DNA of 64,000 nucleotides from Hymenobacter citatus (lineage in GTDB: Bacteria; Bacteroidota; Bacteroidia; Cytophagales; Hymenobacteraceae): assembly GCF_014333615.1 (NCBI RefSeq), contig NZ_JACSCY010000006.1, positions 1-64,000 of the forward strand. The letters run 5' to 3'. Shown here in pieces: positions 23,948 to 32,916 of the stretch (its first letter is position 1; every line of letters starts with the position of its first letter). A model generated the notes under the pieces. That model searched no databases. It was not told the DNA's origin and saw only the letters and a list, made by a program, of their open reading frames with translations. The translations under genes were made by a program, and so were the position numbers.

Positions 23948-24047
23948 TGTCATCCTGAGCTTGCGAAGGACCTTCTCACGCGTGAACGACAGACGTACCA
24001 ATGACTCGTTCAACGGGCATAAGGTCCTTCGCAAGCTCAGGATGACA
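23948..24047. repeat. Palindromic element, family A
   Basis: Arms TGTCATCCTGAGCTTGCG / CGCAAGCTCAGGATGACA with an imperfect inner stem. The loop is in reverse orientation (ends ACGACTCGTTC-like on the plus strand). Between tandem genes on the plus strand. Confidence 0.9.
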
Positions 24048-24090
24048 CTCTTCCTATTCCTCTATCCCCACACCCCAGTACCTCACTCCC

Positions 24091-24768
24091 ATGAAAATCC
24101 TGTTAGTCGAAGACGAACCCAAGGTTTCTGCGTTTATCCGGCGTGGTTTGGAGGAGGAGCACTATGAGGTGGAAGTGGCCTACGATGGCACATTTGGCCA
24201 GCGGCTGGCCCTCACGCACTCCTACGACCTAATTATTCTGGACGTCATCCTACCCAATCAAAGCGGCCTGGACGTGTTAAGAGCCATTCGTGGGCAGGAC
24301 CAGCAGGTGCCCGTGCTCATGCTCACGGCCCTGGGCACCACCACCGATAAGCTCCACGGCTTCGATGGCGGCGCCGACGACTACCTCGTGAAACCCTTCG
24401 ACTTTGCCGAGCTGTTGGCCCGCGTGAAAGCCCTCACGCGCCGCCGTGGCCACACGGCCAAGGGAGCAGTGCTTACCCTGGCCGACCTCAACTTGGATAC
24501 GGCCGCCAAAACCGTGACGCGCAACGGCCAACCTATCAAGCTCACGGCCCGCGAGTTTACCCTGCTGGAGCTGTTTATGCGCAACCGTGGCCGGGTACTC
24601 AGCCGCGCCGAAATAGCCGAAAACTCCTGGGAAGATTCCTTCGACTCCGGATCAAACGTCATCGACGTATATGTGAATTACCTGCGCAACAAAATCGACA
24701 AGAATTTTCCTACCAAGCTCATTCACACAGTAGTAGGCATGGGCTATGTATTGCGGGAAGAGGGGTGA
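24091..24768 (+). CDS. OmpR/PhoB-family response regulator
   Basis: 225 residues. Receiver domain (1-120) with E7/D8, phosphoacceptor D51 in LIILDVILPNQSG, Thr in MLTALG and Lys in DYLVKPFDF. A winged-helix DNA-binding domain follows (about 128-225; LTAREFTLLELFMRNRGRVLSR, TVVGMGYVLRE). It resembles CusR/CopR-type regulators that control metal efflux. The partner kinase follows at 24968 and the pump genes at 27072, preceded by direct repeats suited to this family. Confidence 0.93.
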   Translation: MKILLVEDEPKVSAFIRRGLEEEHYEVEVAYDGTFGQRLALTHSYDLIILDVILPNQSGLDVLRAIRGQDQQVPVLMLTALGTTTDKLHGFDGGADDYLVKPFDFAELLARVKALTRRRGHTAKGAVLTLADLNLDTAAKTVTRNGQPIKLTAREFTLLELFMRNRGRVLSRAEIAENSWEDSFDSGSNVIDVYVNYLRNKIDKNFPTKLIHTVVGMGYVLREEG

Positions 24769-24966
24769 AATGGTGAGATGGTGAGTAGTGAATACGGCTG
24801 TCATCCTGAGCGTAGCGAAGGACCTTCTCACGCCAGAACGACCACCTTAATAACGACTCGTTTCTACATTCATCGTTCCAGCGTGAGGAGGTCCTTCGCT
24901 ACGCTCAGGATGACAGCCGTATTCACCACTCACTACTCACTACTCACTACTCACCATCTCACCACC
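24763..24966. repeat. Extended palindrome, family A with TGGTGAG flanks
   Basis: The core (about 24797-24927) has the private variant GAGCGTAGCGAAGG in both arms. The symmetry extends outward through GTGAATACGGCTG and into short TGGTGAGTAG-type repeats that reach the regulator's stop codon on the left and the kinase start region on the right. The right arm has extra ACTCACT units. The loop has a rearranged, longer sequence. Confidence 0.9.
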
Positions 24967-24967
24967 C

Positions 24968-26368
24968 ATGACCATCCGTAACCGCTTGACCCTCTTATTT
25001 CTGAGCATGGTGGCCGTTATTCTGGCGGTGGCTCTCACGGTGGCGTATGTGCTACAGGTGCGCTACTCGCAGCGGGAGTTTCGGCAGCGCCTGCGCGACC
25101 GGGCCGAGGTGACGGGCTATATCTTTCTGGAGCAGGATGAAATGCGGGCCGGGGCCTTTCGCTTGTTTCAGAAGCGCTATTTGCAAGCCTTGAACAACGA
25201 GGTATTGCAGATTTATGACTCCAACCACCAGGTGCGTTTTTTGGAGGAAGACGAAAGCATTACGCTATCCGATAAGCTACTGGCCCGCATTGTGGTGGAT
25301 GGCGAAATGTATTTTACCATCGGACCGCGGCAAGCCATTGGGATGTTCTACCACGACAACCAGGGCGACTACATTATAGTAGCCGCCGCCGAGAACAAGC
25401 TGGGCAAAGCCCGCCAGCAAAACCTTGCCCTCATTTTGGCGCTGACCTTTGTAGGCAGCCTGGCGGTTATCTACGTGGCCGGGCGCATCTTTGCGGGGCG
25501 GGTACTGGCGCCCATTGCCGCCGTCAACGACCAAGTGGACCGCATCACGGCCCGCGACCTGCATTTGCGGCTGGACGAAGGACAAGGCCACGAGCAGGAC
25601 GAAATTACCCGTCTGGCTACCACCTTTAACCGGATGCTCACGCGCCTGGAGGACAGCTTTGAGGCGCAGCGTACGTTTGTCAGCAATGCTTCGCACGAGC
25701 TGCGCACTCCGCTCACGGCCACCATTGGCGAGGTGCAGGTGCTGCTGAAGCGCGACCGGACACCGGCCGAGTACCGCGAGGCGCTGGCCTCGGTGCTAGC
25801 CGAGCTGCAACAGCTAAAAACCCTGTTTAATGACTTGCTGGAGCTAACGCAGGCAGAAGCGAGCAGCCCCCACCCCGACGATATTCGTCTGGACGAGCTG
25901 ATCTGGGAGGCCCGCGAAGCTCTGTTGCCTGAGTGGCGGCGACGCGTACACATTCACCTAGAAGCCCTACCCGCCGAGCCCGAAGCTCTGGAAATCAAAG
26001 GCAACCGGCAGCTGCTTACCCGCGCCCTGATCAACCTGCTGGACAACGCCCTGAAATACTCGGGCGAGGCACCCGTGGACGTCACGTTTCGCTACGCCAG
26101 CGAGGCAATCCGCATCAGGATTCAGGACCAGGGCATGGGCATTGCCGAAAAGGACCTGGCCAACATCTTTCAACCCTTTTTTCGGGCGGCCAACGCGCGG
26201 GGTGTGGTGGGCCACGGGGTAGGGCTGCCTCTGGCTCGTAAGATTATTGAGCTGCACCAGGGGCAGCTCCACATCACCTCTACCTTGCACGAAGGCACGC
26301 TGGCGGAAGTGCAGTTTTCTACGGGCAACCCAACTCAACGTTTTGATAAGCAAGGCCCTACCCGATAA
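24968..26368 (+). CDS. HAMP-domain sensor histidine kinase
   Basis: 466 residues. First membrane helix at about 10-30, periplasmic sensor region, second helix at about 152-172, then a HAMP domain (RVLAPIAAVNDQVDRITARDL). HisKA domain with ASHELRTPLTA, phosphoacceptor His243; ATPase domain with N-box LLDNALKYS, DQGMGIAEKDL and HGVGLPLARKI. It is the partner of the regulator at 24091, and the pair should govern the RND pump downstream. The two genes are separated by a 199-bp palindrome. Confidence 0.92.
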   Translation: MTIRNRLTLLFLSMVAVILAVALTVAYVLQVRYSQREFRQRLRDRAEVTGYIFLEQDEMRAGAFRLFQKRYLQALNNEVLQIYDSNHQVRFLEEDESITLSDKLLARIVVDGEMYFTIGPRQAIGMFYHDNQGDYIIVAAAENKLGKARQQNLALILALTFVGSLAVIYVAGRIFAGRVLAPIAAVNDQVDRITARDLHLRLDEGQGHEQDEITRLATTFNRMLTRLEDSFEAQRTFVSNASHELRTPLTATIGEVQVLLKRDRTPAEYREALASVLAELQQLKTLFNDLLELTQAEASSPHPDDIRLDELIWEAREALLPEWRRRVHIHLEALPAEPEALEIKGNRQLLTRALINLLDNALKYSGEAPVDVTFRYASEAIRIRIQDQGMGIAEKDLANIFQPFFRAANARGVVGHGVGLPLARKIIELHQGQLHITSTLHEGTLAEVQFSTGNPTQRFDKQGPTR

Positions 26369-26397: not shown

Positions 26398-26820
26398 CTA
26401 GTGTAGCGCTACGTGGGTGAGTGGCGAGGCTTGCTTCTGCAACCACAGGCAGGCCGTGGCTACATCATCGAACGTAGTTACGATGATTGGCTTCACGTGA
26501 ATCAGGATATGCTCCGTGGCGTCGCGGTTGGCAAACAGCCGGGGATACACCCACGCGATGTGTCGCAGCCCGGCCCCTACCAGCTCCTGCAACCACCATG
26601 GGTCCCAGGTCGACAGATCGGCGGAGGTGCTGCTGATGGAAGAGGTGTCGTTTAGCATTTTGCTGCTGGGCTGCTGCCGTAAAGCATCCAACAGCAACAA
26701 GCCCGCTGCCTGAGTCGATTCCTGCGTGTGCACGCCCTGCCATTCGGCGTAGAGCCACTGGTTGATTTCGTCGTAGTAAATGGATATACCCGGCGTGGTG
26801 ACAATCAGACGAAGCGGCAT
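26398..26820 (-). CDS. STAS/SpoIIAA-like protein of unknown role
   Basis: About 140 residues, cytoplasmic. The layout (YYDEINQWLYAEWQGVHTQES near the start, LLLDALRQQ, LNDTSSISS, then a Trp-rich helix) resembles small STAS-like proteins that Bacteroidota encode next to signalling genes, but I cannot name a family with certainty. Start at ATG 26820; a TTG-led extension to 26832 is unlikely. It is convergent with the kinase (29 bp between stops) and divergent from the pump operon. Confidence 0.55.
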   Translation of the reverse strand: MPLRLIVTTPGISIYYDEINQWLYAEWQGVHTQESTQAAGLLLLDALRQQPSSKMLNDTSSISSTSADLSTWDPWWLQELVGAGLRHIAWVYPRLFANRDATEHILIHVKPIIVTTFDDVATACLWLQKQASPLTHVALH

Positions 26821-26990
26821 GAGCAAGAGCAATTAGCACTGGTAAGAACGTACTGATAGTCAGTGTGAGCTGACGAAGCTACTGAATAGAATGAAACTTA
26901 ACGGACCAGCACTATAATTATTCCTATGAATTATAATTCTCTCTTATTTTATTTTACTGATTTTCAATTACTTATTTAAATATTAAGATT

Positions 26991-27029
26991 TCTAATCCGT
27001 TTCTAATCCAACTCTAACATCGGCCTAAT
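26991..27029 (+). promoter_or_regulatory. Four 11-bp-phased direct repeats upstream of the efflux operon
   Basis: TCTAAT (26991), TCTAAT (27002), TCTAAC (27013) and CCTAAT (27024) are spaced by exactly 11 bp. Direct repeats of about one helical turn are the usual target for OmpR/PhoB-type regulators, and one such regulator gene lies 2 kb upstream. They sit just ahead of a -7-like box. That they bind this regulator is inference. Confidence 0.75.
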
Positions 27030-27039
27030 ACCGTCGGAG

Positions 27040-27047
27040 TACACTTG
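27040..27047 (+). promoter_or_regulatory. -7-like promoter box of efflux operon
   Basis: TACACTTG matches the Bacteroidota TAnnTTTG box with one change. No TTTG at the usual -33 distance is seen; the phased repeats occupy that place, which suits an activated promoter. About 25 bp upstream of the ATG at 27072. Confidence 0.55.
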
Positions 27048-27071: not shown

Positions 27072-28364
27072 ATGTCTCGCTTTCACTCGCTGCTGTTTTT
27101 TCTGTTGTTGCTGATTGGCACTAGCCACGCCGCCCCTCTCCTACCCACGGCGGCCGTGCCCGATACAGCCCAACTTACGCTACCCGAAGCCGAGCAGCGC
27201 TTCACTCAAAACAACCTGCTGCTGCTGGCCCAGCGCTACAATGTGTCGGCGGCGCAGGCGCAGATTCTGCAGGCCCGGCTTTGGGACAACCCTACCCTCT
27301 CGCTGGAGCAAAACACCTACAACCCCAACACGCGGCGTGCCTTCGACGTGACGCGCCGGGGCGAAAGCATTGTGCAGGTGCAGCAGCTGTTTGCCATTGC
27401 CGGACGCCGCAAAGCTGCCGCCAACGTGGCCCAGCAAAATGCTCTGGTAGAGCAGTTCAACCTGGAAGATTTGCTGCGCAACCTCAACTACCAGCTGCGC
27501 ACCACCTTCTTCGATCTGTACTACAAGCAGCAAACCGTTAGCACCTACAACACCGAAATCAGCTCGTTTCAGCGGACGCTGACGGCTTACCAGAACCAGT
27601 ATGATAAGGGCAACATTGCTCTGAAAGAGGTGATTCGGCTGCGGGCTTTCCTATTTGACCTACAATCGGAGCGGCAGGCGCTGCTCTCGGAAATTGCCTC
27701 GCAGGAGTCGGATCTGCGGATTTTGTTGCGCGAGTCATCGGGTACGTACTACCGCCCCGCCGTCAACGATACCCGGTTGCAGGCCTTGTCGCTCACGGGC
27801 TTCTCGGAAGAGCAGCTGGCCGACACCGCCCAAGTGGCCCGTGCCGACCTGCGCGCCCGCCAGGCCGACGTGGAGCAGCAAAACCAGAACCTGCGCCTGC
27901 AACGCGCCCTGGCCGCCCCCGACCTGGCCCTGGGCTACGTGTACGACCGCGCTGGCAGCTACATCCAGAACTACAATGCCCTGACGCTGGGCGTGGCCGT
28001 GCCCATTTTCAACCGCAACCAGGGCAATATCCGCACGGCGCAGGCCCAGATTGAGCAGAGCCGCGCCCAGCGCGACCAGCAGCTGCTCACGGTGCGCAAC
28101 GACGTGCAGGAGGCCTGGCGCCAGGCCCAGCAAACCGATGCGCTTTACCAGACGGCCACCCGCAACATCAGCGACTTTTCGCGCCTGATTCAGGGCATCG
28201 AGCAGAGCTACGCCAAGCGCAACATCACCATCGTGGAGTTTCTGGATTTCTACGAGAGCTACAAGAACAACATCGTGCAGCTCAACCAGTTGCGCGCCGC
28301 CCGCCTGCGGGCGTTCGAGGCGCTTAATTTCTCGGTAGGGCGCCCGGTATTCAACGTCGAATAG
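27072..28364 (+). CDS. TolC-family outer-membrane efflux protein
   Basis: 430 residues. Signal peptide about 1-20. Two long helical hairpin regions with the TolC-like alternating LLLAQRYNVSAAQAQILQARLWDNPTL start and a duplicated C-terminal half (AQVARADLRARQADVEQQNQ). Forms the outer-membrane channel of a CzcCBA-type pump with the next two genes. Start chosen at 27072; the frame opens nine codons earlier. First gene of the pump operon. Confidence 0.9.
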   Translation: MSRFHSLLFFLLLLIGTSHAAPLLPTAAVPDTAQLTLPEAEQRFTQNNLLLLAQRYNVSAAQAQILQARLWDNPTLSLEQNTYNPNTRRAFDVTRRGESIVQVQQLFAIAGRRKAAANVAQQNALVEQFNLEDLLRNLNYQLRTTFFDLYYKQQTVSTYNTEISSFQRTLTAYQNQYDKGNIALKEVIRLRAFLFDLQSERQALLSEIASQESDLRILLRESSGTYYRPAVNDTRLQALSLTGFSEEQLADTAQVARADLRARQADVEQQNQNLRLQRALAAPDLALGYVYDRAGSYIQNYNALTLGVAVPIFNRNQGNIRTAQAQIEQSRAQRDQQLLTVRNDVQEAWRQAQQTDALYQTATRNISDFSRLIQGIEQSYAKRNITIVEFLDFYESYKNNIVQLNQLRAARLRAFEALNFSVGRPVFNVE

Positions 28365-28489: not shown

Positions 28490-29578
28490 ATGAACCGCCT
28501 CCTTTTTCCTACCCTTTTTGTCCTCACGCTGGCGGGCTGCTCCGGTCACGACGAAGCCGAACAGCCGCACAAAGCCGAGGCGGGTTTCTCGCTGTCGGAC
28601 CAGATGTTGCAGGAGCTGAAGATTGACACGGTGCACGCCGAGCCCGTGCGCGACGAGCTGCTGCTAACCGGCCAGATTGCCTCCGACGGCGACAAAACCG
28701 TGAAGGTGTACCCGCTGGTGGGCGGCGTGGTGGAGCAGTTGAGCGTGGAGCTGGGCGACCACGTGACCAAGGGGCAAGTACTGGCCGTGATTCGCAGCGG
28801 TGAAATTGCCGACCTGCAAAACCAGTCCTCTACGGCCGGCTCCGACCTGGACATTGCCCGCAAAAACCTGCAAGTGGCCGAGGATCAGTTTGCCGATGGC
28901 CTAGCCTCGGAGCGCGATGTGACCCTGGCCCGCCAGGAGCTGCGCAAGGCCCAGAGCAACGTGGGCAAATCGCGCAAGCAGCTGAATGTCTACGGTGTAT
29001 CGGCCGACGGCACCTACACGCTACGGGCGCCGATTTCGGGCTTCATCACGGAGAAAAACGTGACTGATCACATGCAGTTCAACGCCGATAACGTGGGCAA
29101 CCTGTTCACAGTCAGCAACCTGGATGATGTGTGGATTATGGCCAACGTGTTTGAGTCGGACATTGCCAAGGTGCACGAAGGCTACACGGCCCAGGTAACT
29201 ACCCTCTCCTACCCCGACAAGGTGTTCACCGGCAAAATCGACAAGGTGTTCAACGTGCTCGACCCCGACTCGAAGGTGATGAAGGTGCGCGTGCGCCTGC
29301 CCAATCCCGGCTACCTGCTCAAGCCCGAGATGTACGCCCAGATCAAGGTGGAAAACACCCAAAACGAGAAGATGCTGGCCGTGCCCGCGCAGTGCGTGGT
29401 CTTCGACAAGGACCGCAACTTCGTGCTGGTGTTCAAGGACCGCAGCCACATCGAAACCCGCGAGGTGAAAGTGGCCAAAACGGTAGGCGACACCAGCTAC
29501 GTGGAATCGGGCCTGCACGACGGCGAGCGAATCATCGCCCAAAACCAGCTATTGGTATACGACGAGTTGAATGATTAA
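28490..29578 (+). CDS. RND efflux periplasmic adaptor (membrane fusion) lipoprotein
   Basis: 362 residues. Lipobox LAGC at about residue 17, then a barrel-sandwich hybrid domain (VKVYPLVGGVVEQLSVELGDHVTKGQ), a helical hairpin (DIARKNLQVAEDQFADGLASERD) and further beta-domains. Connects the TolC channel with the RND pump. CusB/CzcB-like, but without the extra His/Met-rich N-terminal segment that would suggest metal chaperoning. Gap to the previous gene 125 bp, to the next 173 bp. Confidence 0.9.
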   Translation: MNRLLFPTLFVLTLAGCSGHDEAEQPHKAEAGFSLSDQMLQELKIDTVHAEPVRDELLLTGQIASDGDKTVKVYPLVGGVVEQLSVELGDHVTKGQVLAVIRSGEIADLQNQSSTAGSDLDIARKNLQVAEDQFADGLASERDVTLARQELRKAQSNVGKSRKQLNVYGVSADGTYTLRAPISGFITEKNVTDHMQFNADNVGNLFTVSNLDDVWIMANVFESDIAKVHEGYTAQVTTLSYPDKVFTGKIDKVFNVLDPDSKVMKVRVRLPNPGYLLKPEMYAQIKVENTQNEKMLAVPAQCVVFDKDRNFVLVFKDRSHIETREVKVAKTVGDTSYVESGLHDGERIIAQNQLLVYDELND

Positions 29579-29751: not shown

Positions 29752-32700
29752 ATGAACAAGTTCATCCAAGGCATCATTGCCTTTTCGCTGAAGAACCGCG
29801 GCTTCATCTTTTTGCTGACGCTGCTGGCCATTGTGGCCGGGGTGGTGAGCTACCGCAACACGCCCATTGAGGCATTTCCGGACGTCACGAACACCGAAAT
29901 TACCATCATCACGCAGTGGCCCGGCCGCTCGGCCGAGGAGATTGAGAAGTTTGTGACGGCCCCGGTGGAAATTGCCCTGAACCCGGTGCAGAAGAAAACC
30001 AGCATCCGCAGCACTACCCTCTTCGGGTTGTCGGTGGTGAAGGTGATTTTCGATGACGGCGTGGACGATGCCTTCGCCCGCGTGCAGGTCAACAACATGC
30101 TGCAAGACGTAGACCTGCCCGAAGGCGTGGACCCCGAGGTGCAGCCGCCCTACGGCCCTACCGGCGAAATCTTCCGCTACACCCTCGACAGCAAAAGCAA
30201 AACCGTGCGCGAGCTGAAAACCCTGCAAGACTGGGTGATTGAGCGTAACCTGAAAGCCGTACCCGGCGTGGCCGACGTGAACAGCTTTGGCGGCGAGGTG
30301 AAGGATTACGAAATCAGCGTGAACCCCAGCAAGCTCCAGGATTTCGGCATCTCGCCGCTGGACCTCTACAACGCCATTCAGCGCAGCAACATCAACGTGG
30401 GCGGCGACGTGATAAACGCCGGCCAGCAGAACTTTGTGGTGCGCGGCATCGGCCTACTCAACAACATTTCCGACATCAACAACACCGTTATCAAGAACGT
30501 GAACGGGGTAGGGATTCTGGTGAAGGATGTGGCCATCGTGCACGAGTCGGCCCTACCCAAGCTGGGCAAGGTAGGCCGCAACTACGACGACAACATGGTG
30601 GAAGGCATTGTGGTGATGCGCAAGGGCGAAAACCCCTCACAGGTGATTGCCGCCCTCAAAGCCAAGGTGACCGAGCTGAACGAGAAAATCCTCCCCTCCG
30701 ACGTGAAGATCAAGACCTTCTACGACCGGCAGCAACTCATCGACTTCTCCACCGAAACTGTGATTCACAACCTGCTGGAAGGCATTATTCTGGTCACGGT
30801 TATCGTGTTCGTGTTCATGGCCGACTGGCGCACCACGGTGATTGTGTCGGTGATTATTCCGCTGGCGTTGCTGTTTGCCTTCATCTGCCTGCGGCTGAAG
30901 GGCATGAGTGCCAACCTGCTCTCGATGGGCGCCATCGACTTCGGTATCATCATCGATGGGGCCGTGGTGATGGTGGAAGGGCTCTTTGTGGCCCTCGACC
31001 ATAAAGCCCACGAGGTAGGGATGGAGCGCTTCAACAAGCTCTCGAAGCTGGGCCTGATTAAGAAGTCGGGCCGGGAGATGGGCAAGTCGATTTTCTTCGC
31101 CAAGGCCATCATTATCACGGCCCTCCTACCCATCTTTTCCTTCGAGAAGGTAGAAGGCAAGGTGTTTTCGCCCCTGGCTTGGACGCTCGGCTTTGCCCTG
31201 CTTGGGGCGCTCATTTTCACGCTGACGCTGGTGCCGGTGCTAGCTTCGCTGCTGCTCAAAAAGAACGTGCGCGAGAAGGACAACTTCTTCGTGCGCGGCA
31301 TCAACCGCGGGGCGCAGCGCTTTTTCGCCTTCACCTACGCTCGCAAAACGGCCAGCTTAGTGGTGGCTGCGGTGGTGGTAGTGGTGGGCATGGGCGCGTT
31401 CCACTTCCTGGGCTCGGAGTTCCTACCCGAGCTGAACGAAGGCTCTATCTATGTGCGGGCGCAGCTGCCGCTGAGCATTTCGCTGGACGAATCGAATAAG
31501 CTTTGCAACGAGATGCGGCGGGTGTTCCTGAGCTTTCCGGAGGTAGGCGATGTGGTGAGCCAGACCGGCCGCCCCAACGACGGCACCGACCCCACGGGCT
31601 TCTACAACAACGAGTTTCTGGTGCAGCTGAAGCACACGCCCGAGGTAGAGGCCGAGATGAAGCACAAGGACAAGCGCGAGGCCCTGATTGAGCACATGAA
31701 GGAGAAGCTGGCCCGCTTCCCCGGCGTCGATTTCAACTTCTCCCAGCCCATCACCGACAACGTGGAAGAAGCCGCTTCGGGCGTGAAAGGCTCTATTGCC
31801 GTGAAAATCTACGGCACCGACCTGAAGCTAATGGAAGCCAAAGCCCGCCAGGTCTACGACGTGCTCAAGGACATCAAAGGCATCGACGACCTGGGCGCGT
31901 TGCGCAACATCGGACAGCCCGAGCTGCACGTGGAGCTGGACGAGCGGCGCATGGCCCAGTACGGCGTGAGCAAAGCCGACGCCAACGCAGTGCTGGAAAT
32001 GGCCGTGGGCGGCAAGCAGGCCACCCAGATGTACGAGGGCGAGCGGAAATTCCCGATTGTGGTGCGCTACGAGGAAGGCTTCCGCCAGTCGCCTACCCAG
32101 ATTGCGGCCCTGATGGTGCCCACCATGAACGGCAACAGCGTGCCGCTGTCGGAAATTGCCACCGTCTCGGACGTAAACGGCCCCTCGCTCATCTACCGCG
32201 ACGACAACAAGCGCTTCTCGGCCGTGAAGTTCTCTATCCGCGGCCGCGACATGGGTAGCACCATCGAGGAAGCCCAGCGCAAGGTAGATGCCGTGGTGAG
32301 CCTACCCAAAGGCTACAGCATGAAGTGGACCGGCGACTTTGAAAACCAGCGCCGCGCCACCCAGCGCCTCACGCAGGTGGTGCCCATCTCGCTGGCGCTG
32401 ATTTTCTTCATCCTGTTCATCCTGTTCGGCAACCTGAAAGACGCCGGGTTGGTACTCCTGAATGTACCGTTTGCCATCATCGGCGGCATTGCCATGCTGC
32501 TCATCACGCACACCAACTTCAGCATCTCGGCCGGTATTGGCTTCATTGCCCTGTTCGGTATCTGTATCCAGAATGGCGTGATTCTGATTTCGGTGTTCAA
32601 GCAGAACATGCTGAAAAAGATGAGCCTCGACGACAGCATCCACGAAGGCGTGACCAGCCGCGTGCGCCCCGTAGTGATGACGGCCCTGATGGCCACCATC

Positions 32701-32916
32701 GGCCTGATGCCGGCGGCTATCAGCACCGGCATCGGCTCCGAAACCTCGAAGCCCCTGGCGATTGTGGTGATTGGTGGTCTGATTACGGGCACCATCCTCA
32801 CGCTGTTCATCTTCCCGCTGGTGTTTGAGCGCGCCTACCGCGCCGAGCACACCCACTACGGCGACGACCCGGCGCTGCGCCAGCACAGCCACAAGCCCGT
32901 GCTGGTGGGGGCATAA
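29752..32916 (+). CDS. Heavy-metal efflux RND pump (CzcA/CusA family)
   Basis: 1054 residues with the 12-helix RND layout: N-terminal helix (about 14-32), first periplasmic domain, helices around 340-500, second periplasmic domain and a C-terminal helix set. The transmembrane motif DFGIIIDGAVVMVE (with two acidic residues) matches the zinc/cobalt/cadmium-type pumps; CusA-like Cu/Ag pumps have a different sequence there. Substrate is therefore probably a divalent metal. It completes the TolC-adaptor-pump operon. A perfect terminator follows. Confidence 0.92.
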   Translation: MNKFIQGIIAFSLKNRGFIFLLTLLAIVAGVVSYRNTPIEAFPDVTNTEITIITQWPGRSAEEIEKFVTAPVEIALNPVQKKTSIRSTTLFGLSVVKVIFDDGVDDAFARVQVNNMLQDVDLPEGVDPEVQPPYGPTGEIFRYTLDSKSKTVRELKTLQDWVIERNLKAVPGVADVNSFGGEVKDYEISVNPSKLQDFGISPLDLYNAIQRSNINVGGDVINAGQQNFVVRGIGLLNNISDINNTVIKNVNGVGILVKDVAIVHESALPKLGKVGRNYDDNMVEGIVVMRKGENPSQVIAALKAKVTELNEKILPSDVKIKTFYDRQQLIDFSTETVIHNLLEGIILVTVIVFVFMADWRTTVIVSVIIPLALLFAFICLRLKGMSANLLSMGAIDFGIIIDGAVVMVEGLFVALDHKAHEVGMERFNKLSKLGLIKKSGREMGKSIFFAKAIIITALLPIFSFEKVEGKVFSPLAWTLGFALLGALIFTLTLVPVLASLLLKKNVREKDNFFVRGINRGAQRFFAFTYARKTASLVVAAVVVVVGMGAFHFLGSEFLPELNEGSIYVRAQLPLSISLDESNKLCNEMRRVFLSFPEVGDVVSQTGRPNDGTDPTGFYNNEFLVQLKHTPEVEAEMKHKDKREALIEHMKEKLARFPGVDFNFSQPITDNVEEAASGVKGSIAVKIYGTDLKLMEAKARQVYDVLKDIKGIDDLGALRNIGQPELHVELDERRMAQYGVSKADANAVLEMAVGGKQATQMYEGERKFPIVVRYEEGFRQSPTQIAALMVPTMNGNSVPLSEIATVSDVNGPSLIYRDDNKRFSAVKFSIRGRDMGSTIEEAQRKVDAVVSLPKGYSMKWTGDFENQRRATQRLTQVVPISLALIFFILFILFGNLKDAGLVLLNVPFAIIGGIAMLLITHTNFSISAGIGFIALFGICIQNGVILISVFKQNMLKKMSLDDSIHEGVTSRVRPVVMTALMATIGLMPAAISTGIGSETSKPLAIVVIGGLITGTILTLFIFPLVFERAYRAEHTHYGDDPALRQHSHKPVLVGA

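Follow-up and report, generated by a model that had tools for sequence, protein, structure and literature searches.

A head-to-tail TCTAAY array before a Hymenobacter metal-efflux operon as the predicted operator of an adjacent OmpR/PhoB-family regulator

Introduction

Head-to-tail operators of OmpR/PhoB-family response regulators are an already known kind of regulatory site. In Mycobacterium tuberculosis, PhoP binds head-to-tail to repeats with an 11-bp pitch, three or four motifs being bound more tightly than two, and in its crystal structure Tyr220 hydrogen-bonds C5, the second base of T4-C5-ACAGC (PMC4832192). In Salmonella, PhoP boxes (hexamer, N5, hexamer) are located 12 or 21–23 nt from the -10 hexamer, which together with an engineered box 33 nt away corresponds to one, two and three helical turns (PMC3335776). 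Among regulators of metal efflux, AgrR has been inferred to be a Type II activator (PMC7380067). The consensus of the Bacteroidota -7 box is TAnnTTTG (PMC7366714).

The current study concerns four hexamers repeated before a metal-efflux operon in the window, by which we mean the whole 64,000-nucleotide stretch of Hymenobacter citatus DNA that was analysed. At the level of titles and abstract openings, the papers listed from an open-access library gave no report of a TCTAAY operator or of a code at residue 197 of its regulator, which leaves the absence of such reports unproven.

Results

The features of the locus are collected in Table 1. As an earlier note on this DNA had claimed, an OmpR/PhoB-type response regulator (RR) and a sensor histidine kinase (HK) are encoded upstream of the array, both now recognized by domain matches, and the array does precede a metal pump, the downstream genes encoding a TolC-family channel, a CusB-like adaptor and a CusA/CzcA pump that scores 931.5 bits against TIGR00914 (CusA/CzcA heavy-metal RND pump), above the cut-off of 701.45. 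The best NCBIfam scores of the RR and HK are likewise to heavy-metal regulator and kinase families, both below cut-off: 254.8 bits against TIGR01387 (CztR/SilR/CopR heavy-metal RR; cut-off 279.2) and 197.7 bits against TIGR01386 (cut-off 292.55). The TolC start was set at ATG 27072 because orthologues match from that residue, and this ATG comes 24 nt 3′ of the -7-like box. Between the HK and the array, a 144-aa ORF on the minus strand (26398–26832) matches nothing in Pfam or NCBIfam at an E value of 0.001. In addition, a long imperfect hairpin (TCATCCTGAGC...AAGGACC plus complement), a REP/MITE-type repeat in appearance, is present in two copies, at about 23949–24048 and 24799–24917 of the window, one preceding the RR and the other sitting between the RR and HK.

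Table 1. Positions of the genes and of the repeat array in the window.
Feature	Position	Strand	Basis or remark
OmpR/PhoB-family RR, recognition helix SNVIDVYVNYLRNKID, Tyr197	24091..24768	+	Response_reg and Trans_reg_C above Pfam cut-offs
Membrane sensor HK	24968..26368	+	HAMP, HisKA, HATPase_c
Repeat 1, TCTAAT	26991..26996	+	read from sequence
Repeat 2, TCTAAT	27002..27007	+	read from sequence
Repeat 3, TCTAAC	27013..27018	+	read from sequence
Repeat 4, CCTAAT	27024..27029	+	variant, also found in orthologues
10-nt gap, array to -7 box	27030..27039	+	commonest gap among compared arrays
-7-like box, TACACTTG	27040..27047	+	TAnnTTTG minus one match
TolC-family outer-membrane channel, first gene of the operon	27072..28364	+	OEP
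CusB/CzcB-like periplasmic adaptor	28490..29578	+	RND_mfp above cut-off
CusA/CzcA-family heavy-metal RND pump	29752..32916	+	TIGR00914

With four copies at exact 11-bp steps, the array has the form of a head-to-tail operator (direct repeats of 6–7 bp, about one helical turn apart). The earlier note had described four TCTAAY copies without deviation; their starts and steps are indeed exact, whereas the fourth copy departs from the motif, having C at base 1. Its description of the following box as -7-like and lacking a -33 element holds: relative to the Bacteroidota sigma-ABfr promoter (-7 TAnnTTTG, -33 TTTG), TACACTTG has one mismatch, and no -33 element is visible because TTTG is absent from the 50 nt before it (26990–27039). 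The 10-nt gap and the lack of TTTG also place the array as head-to-tail operators are placed when they replace a -35/-33 element, at integral turns from the core promoter. TCTAAY-N5-TCTAAY pairs with at most one mismatch occur three times in the window, all within this array, against 0.32 expected.

Comparison of sequences shows the array to be conserved and to accompany the RR-HK pair in Hymenobacter, its base 2 varying with RR residue 197. Orthologous loci were found through the best 80 of 87 TolC relatives, of which 79 were scored (L056 has no upstream sequence): 29 have both array and RR, 2 the array only, 10 the RR only and 38 neither, a split RR in L077 having been entered by hand as present. 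In one of the ten RR-only loci, L098, an array of six copies lies at a greater distance upstream. Within the same best 80 of 87, 26 Hymenobacter loci were scorable, and all 21 with the RR have the array; two have the array without the RR, one of them ending at a contig edge just before the HK, and the three array-less loci have no RR in the flanks taken. The earlier note had named absence of the repeats from orthologous promoters as evidence against its reading, and there they were found. Between copies and species the spacers have diverged and the hexamers have been kept. Beyond the window and L004, a fourth copy with one mismatch is present in 21 of the 79 loci scored from the best 80 of 87 (16 CCTAAT, 3 TGTAAT, 2 TATAAT). 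A motif-blind scan of 81 loci detected a 3x6 repeat at step 11 in 33 of them, versus no more than four for each of the other steps between 8 and 15. Of 120 Hymenobacter genomes, 77 contain a triple in which no more than one position is mismatched, the reversed-pattern controls totalling four matches. An RR at least 72% identical is present in 60 of these genomes, all of which have at least one array-like match, versus 17 of the other 60; this tally was made by hand and accepts a match anywhere in the genome.

The whole 5.08-Mb genome contains seven matches to the TCTAAY triple (at most two mismatches) at five places, and none to the reversed pattern. The five include the window and the promoter of a second TolC-CusB-CusA operon, the pump of which is 70% identical; the promoter of this operon's RR has an array with two perfect copies, whereas none was found in the promoter of the window RR. 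At each of the remaining two places the array precedes a different RND pump operon, near which an RR-HK pair is encoded. A further Tyr-type RR of this genome, 55% identical to that of the window (L281, G000:C17), has no array at up to two mismatches.

Among 395 Bacteroidota genomes sampled, the exact triple occurs in 16, with 25 versus four matches for the reversed control among the matches listed. Four-copy arrays are found in Mucilaginibacter, Dysgonomonas, Prevotella and one Bacteroidales genome; two Bacteroides have two copies each. Around exact triples outside Hymenobacter, an RR match is present at five of 14 loci (L142, L145, L146, L147, L151), compared with five of six Hymenobacter loci taken alongside. 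In Hymenobacter the array is firmly linked to a local RR; in the rest of the Bacteroidota the link is looser, such that arrays there may serve RRs encoded elsewhere. The genes after the arrays vary as well, including CBA metal pumps, other RND pumps, TonB-dependent receptors and SulP-like transporters, the last two labels being read off translations with no family search behind them. Three-copy arrays precede TonB-dependent-receptor-like genes at five loci with no RR match in their 20 kb; the -7 distance is 32 nt in three (L143, L144, L148), whereas in the others (L149, L150) the best site lies 18 nt away. In Hymenobacter, a six-copy (L155 9972) and a five-copy array (L158 9817) precede SulP-like transporter genes. 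Downstream of RRs 68–71% identical to that of the window (L161–L173), most loci encode a short adaptor-like protein and a further regulator, pump queries giving no match there; a TCTAAT-TCTAAT pair is present at 10 of the 13 and a TCTAAT-TTTAAT pair at three, the gap to the -7 box being 10 nt in every case.

These distributions bear upon the possibility that a different regulator, such as a paralogous OmpR-family RR, binds the array, with the local RR not its main ligand. Other Tyr-type RRs of the genome have recognition helices near-identical to that of the window RR, with the same hexamer near them, and arrays do occur where a local RR is lacking, namely at two of the 31 array-bearing TolC loci (from the best 80 of 87) and at nine of 14 loci outside Hymenobacter. 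Nevertheless, in Hymenobacter the array and RR occur together, and when loci were chosen by their RR, most arrays were found to begin about 2.0–2.4 kb past the RR start, just beyond the HK, which makes a different principal ligand unlikely. The earlier note had read the array as an operator for the upstream regulator. Orthologue conservation, RR co-occurrence and the covariation of base 2 with residue 197 all support this, and we consider it highly probable that the RR encoded at 24091 uses the array as its operator. On the other side of the balance are the exact triple's presence in just 16 of the 395 genomes, the RR match at only five of the 14 non-Hymenobacter loci, the array-less promoter of the window RR itself, and the many RRs of the family (49 of 133) for which the finder detected no array.

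Comparison also shows that arrays of this type keep an integral-turn phase to the predicted -7 box. For 84 distinct arrays with two perfect copies, the distance from the array end to the best -7 site, up to two mismatches being allowed, is 10 nt in 48, 21 nt in 15, 22 nt in four and 32 nt in six; seven have other distances and four no accepted site. A second set, made nonredundant on the downstream sequence and picked regardless of phase, comprised 77 arrays with three or more copies, four being commonest (48 of 77). A -7 site with at most one mismatch is present in 61, and 51 of these arrays end 10, 21 or 32 nt before it, versus a mean of 0.9 and a maximum of 6 when the downstream 52 nt were shuffled, although this is no strict phase test, since the arrays are related by descent. 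The same data speak to whether the RR might bind as a repressor, occupying the -33 region and excluding polymerase until a signal arrives. The array does cover that region, but there is no -33 element present to hide, TTTG lies 14–28 nt upstream of the -7 box in just seven of the 61 arrays, and the phase resembles that of activating PhoP boxes (PMC3335776). Repression is consequently improbable.

The strongest correlate of operator base 2 among the regulators is residue 197. Paralogues 62–66% identical to the window RR (L174, L176, L177) have Phe in place of Tyr197, and their arrays consist of TTTAAY copies, with pitch and 10-nt gap unchanged. Operators were classed as C if at least half of their copies have C at base 2 and as T if more than half have T. 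In the discovery set (133 RRs, some from the same genome), an array is at the expected place for 84: Tyr is paired with 69 C and no T, Phe with 13 T and no C, and Leu and Ile with one T each, though one Phe array of this full set (L216) contains a single CCTAAC copy. In the nonredundant set (<70% identity), all 26 Tyr arrays are C, eight of them by rule with C in exactly half the copies, and all ten others are T (Phe 8, Leu 1, Ile 1) with no C copy. Of 225 RR columns, column 197 has the strongest association with operator base 2 (z 18.5; next 6.3). In the best tree of 46 RRs, residue 197 and base 2 change together five times, but just two independent Tyr/non-Tyr contrasts fall on well-supported branches, so a sign test cannot reach significance. 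A generic array finder over the 133 RRs gave 82 arrays on the same strand, five on the opposite strand and one after shuffling; its reversed-sequence control (29 of 133) was discarded as contaminated, since reversed TCTAAT retains an in-register TAA step.

Held-out sets support this association less strongly than the discovery set. Among 40 held-out RRs, those with Tyr have three C and two T arrays, the latter each with a TCTAAT copy, and 12 of 17 have none; Phe has two T (three of five without), His one T (eight without), and arrays are absent for Leu (2), Met (1), Lys (3) and Arg (3). Base-2 letters were also set in competition at 164 of 173 RRs, discovery ones included, nine having too little flank. 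With at most one mismatch, Tyr gave 49 C, 3 T, 1 tie and 50 none, and Phe 14 T and 22 none; with at most two, Tyr gave 56 C, 6 T, 3 ties and 38 none, Phe 21 T, 1 A and 14 none, and Lys 1 T. Nonredundantly, the results at one mismatch were 19 C, 2 T, 1 tie and 29 none for Tyr, 8 T and 15 none for Phe, 1 T and 3 none for Leu, and 1 T and 1 none for Ile; at two mismatches they were 25 C, 4 T, 3 ties and 19 none for Tyr and 11 T, 1 A and 11 none for Phe. The last 20 regions (19 scorable) yielded, at one mismatch, 4 C and 10 none for Tyr, 1 T and 1 none for Phe, and none for Arg (2) or Met (1). C and T may mix within Tyr arrays, and none of the Phe arrays was C-type. RRs in which residue 197 is His, Lys, Arg or Met yielded no recognizable common operator.

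A structural DNA element without sequence-specific protein binding (phased TAA steps, curvature, UP-like) would fit the TAA step that recurs once each helical turn. It is nonetheless very improbable, given that base 2 tracks an RR residue and that hexamers carrying A or G at base 2, used as controls, come out best at just one of 164 loci even when two mismatches are allowed. Chance or a simple tandem repeat, of which a genuine 11-bp example of similar sequence exists elsewhere (L028/L157), is ruled out by the nearly empty reversed-pattern controls, the motif-blind scan and the comparative data, above all the constant hexamers between variable spacers. That example (L157 9763, the same as L028) is an exact 11-bp tandem repeat, TCTAACCGGGC, mimicking the motif before NADH-dehydrogenase-like genes; it has no phase to a -7 box and is probably unrelated to the arrays.

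Discussion

The contact described for M. tuberculosis PhoP and the phasing of Salmonella PhoP lead us to interpret the array as a site of class II activation, which the local RR would occupy. Presumably, the RR would bind upon phosphorylation and would activate rather than repress the operon in response to a metal signal. In the alignment, Tyr197 of the window RR corresponds to Tyr220 of M. tuberculosis PhoP, and its hydroxyl would accordingly be expected to contact the C at operator base 2 as Tyr220 does. Phe lacks the hydroxyl and would lose this contact, which fits T at base 2. Taken together, the covariation suggests that a single operator letter is set by a single residue of such regulators. 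We take the position of PhoB Arg201 to be that of Tyr197 in the window RR. PmrA has Asn there, and its DNA model identified no contact for that residue (PMC3973317), which counts against a residue code, as does the T majority in two of five held-out Tyr arrays, each of which still has a TCTAAT copy.

On a broader scale, we lean, by a modest degree, towards a Bacteroidota-wide grammar for a large OmpR-family clade, in which Y[C/T]TAAY copies at an 11-bp pitch would end 10+11k nt from the -7 box, with Tyr reading C (TCTAAY, some T tolerated) and Phe, Leu or Ile reading T (TTTAAY or TTTAAG), a toggle that may help to insulate paralogous two-component systems within one cell. The window RR (Tyr) and a 63%-identical paralogue of the same genome (Phe, TTTAAY array) are an example of such a pair. 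If so, many uncharacterised two-component systems of a major phylum would have a readable operator, which would make regulons predictable from sequence, and the one-residue, one-base prediction is directly testable. The comparison also brings out promoters that lack a visible -33 element and whose putative regulator sites keep a set number of helical turns to the -7 box.

When compared with known systems, the locus would share metal-efflux control with CusR, CopR and AgrR, the heavy-metal families to which its RR and HK score nearest, below cut-off. AgrR has a box built as an inverted repeat, ATKACA-N4-TGTMAT, to which some operators add direct half-sites, whereas by reading only direct repeats of a different hexamer are present here, unlike the inverted-repeat operators of AgrR, CopR and PcoR (PMC7380067). 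The PmrA box is closer, with head-to-tail hexamers separated by N5, and the pbgP half-sites CTTAAT and CCTAAG resemble the CCTAAT found here. However, it has two half-sites, and its hexamers (CTTAAG and XTTAAT) are distinct from TCTAAY, so that only the N5 spacing agrees (PMC3973317); moreover, the window RR is far under the cut-off of the NCBIfam PmrA model (NF007928: 162.8 bits, cut-off 330). The Salmonella PhoP box has the same architecture of hexamer direct repeats, N5, 11-bp pitch and integral-turn spacing. It differs in its hexamer, (T/G)GTTTA, in being present as one or two boxes of two hexamers versus four copies here, and in the sigma-70 -10 hexamer of its promoters, whereas the present arrays face the Bacteroidota TAnnTTTG (PMC3335776). 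Lastly, M. tuberculosis PhoP recognizes a different motif, TCACAGC, and governs an unrelated regulon, but its 7-bp motif and 4-bp spacer add up to the same 11-bp pitch, and the Asn, Val, Tyr and Tyr of its recognition helix are common to both regulators (PMC4832192).
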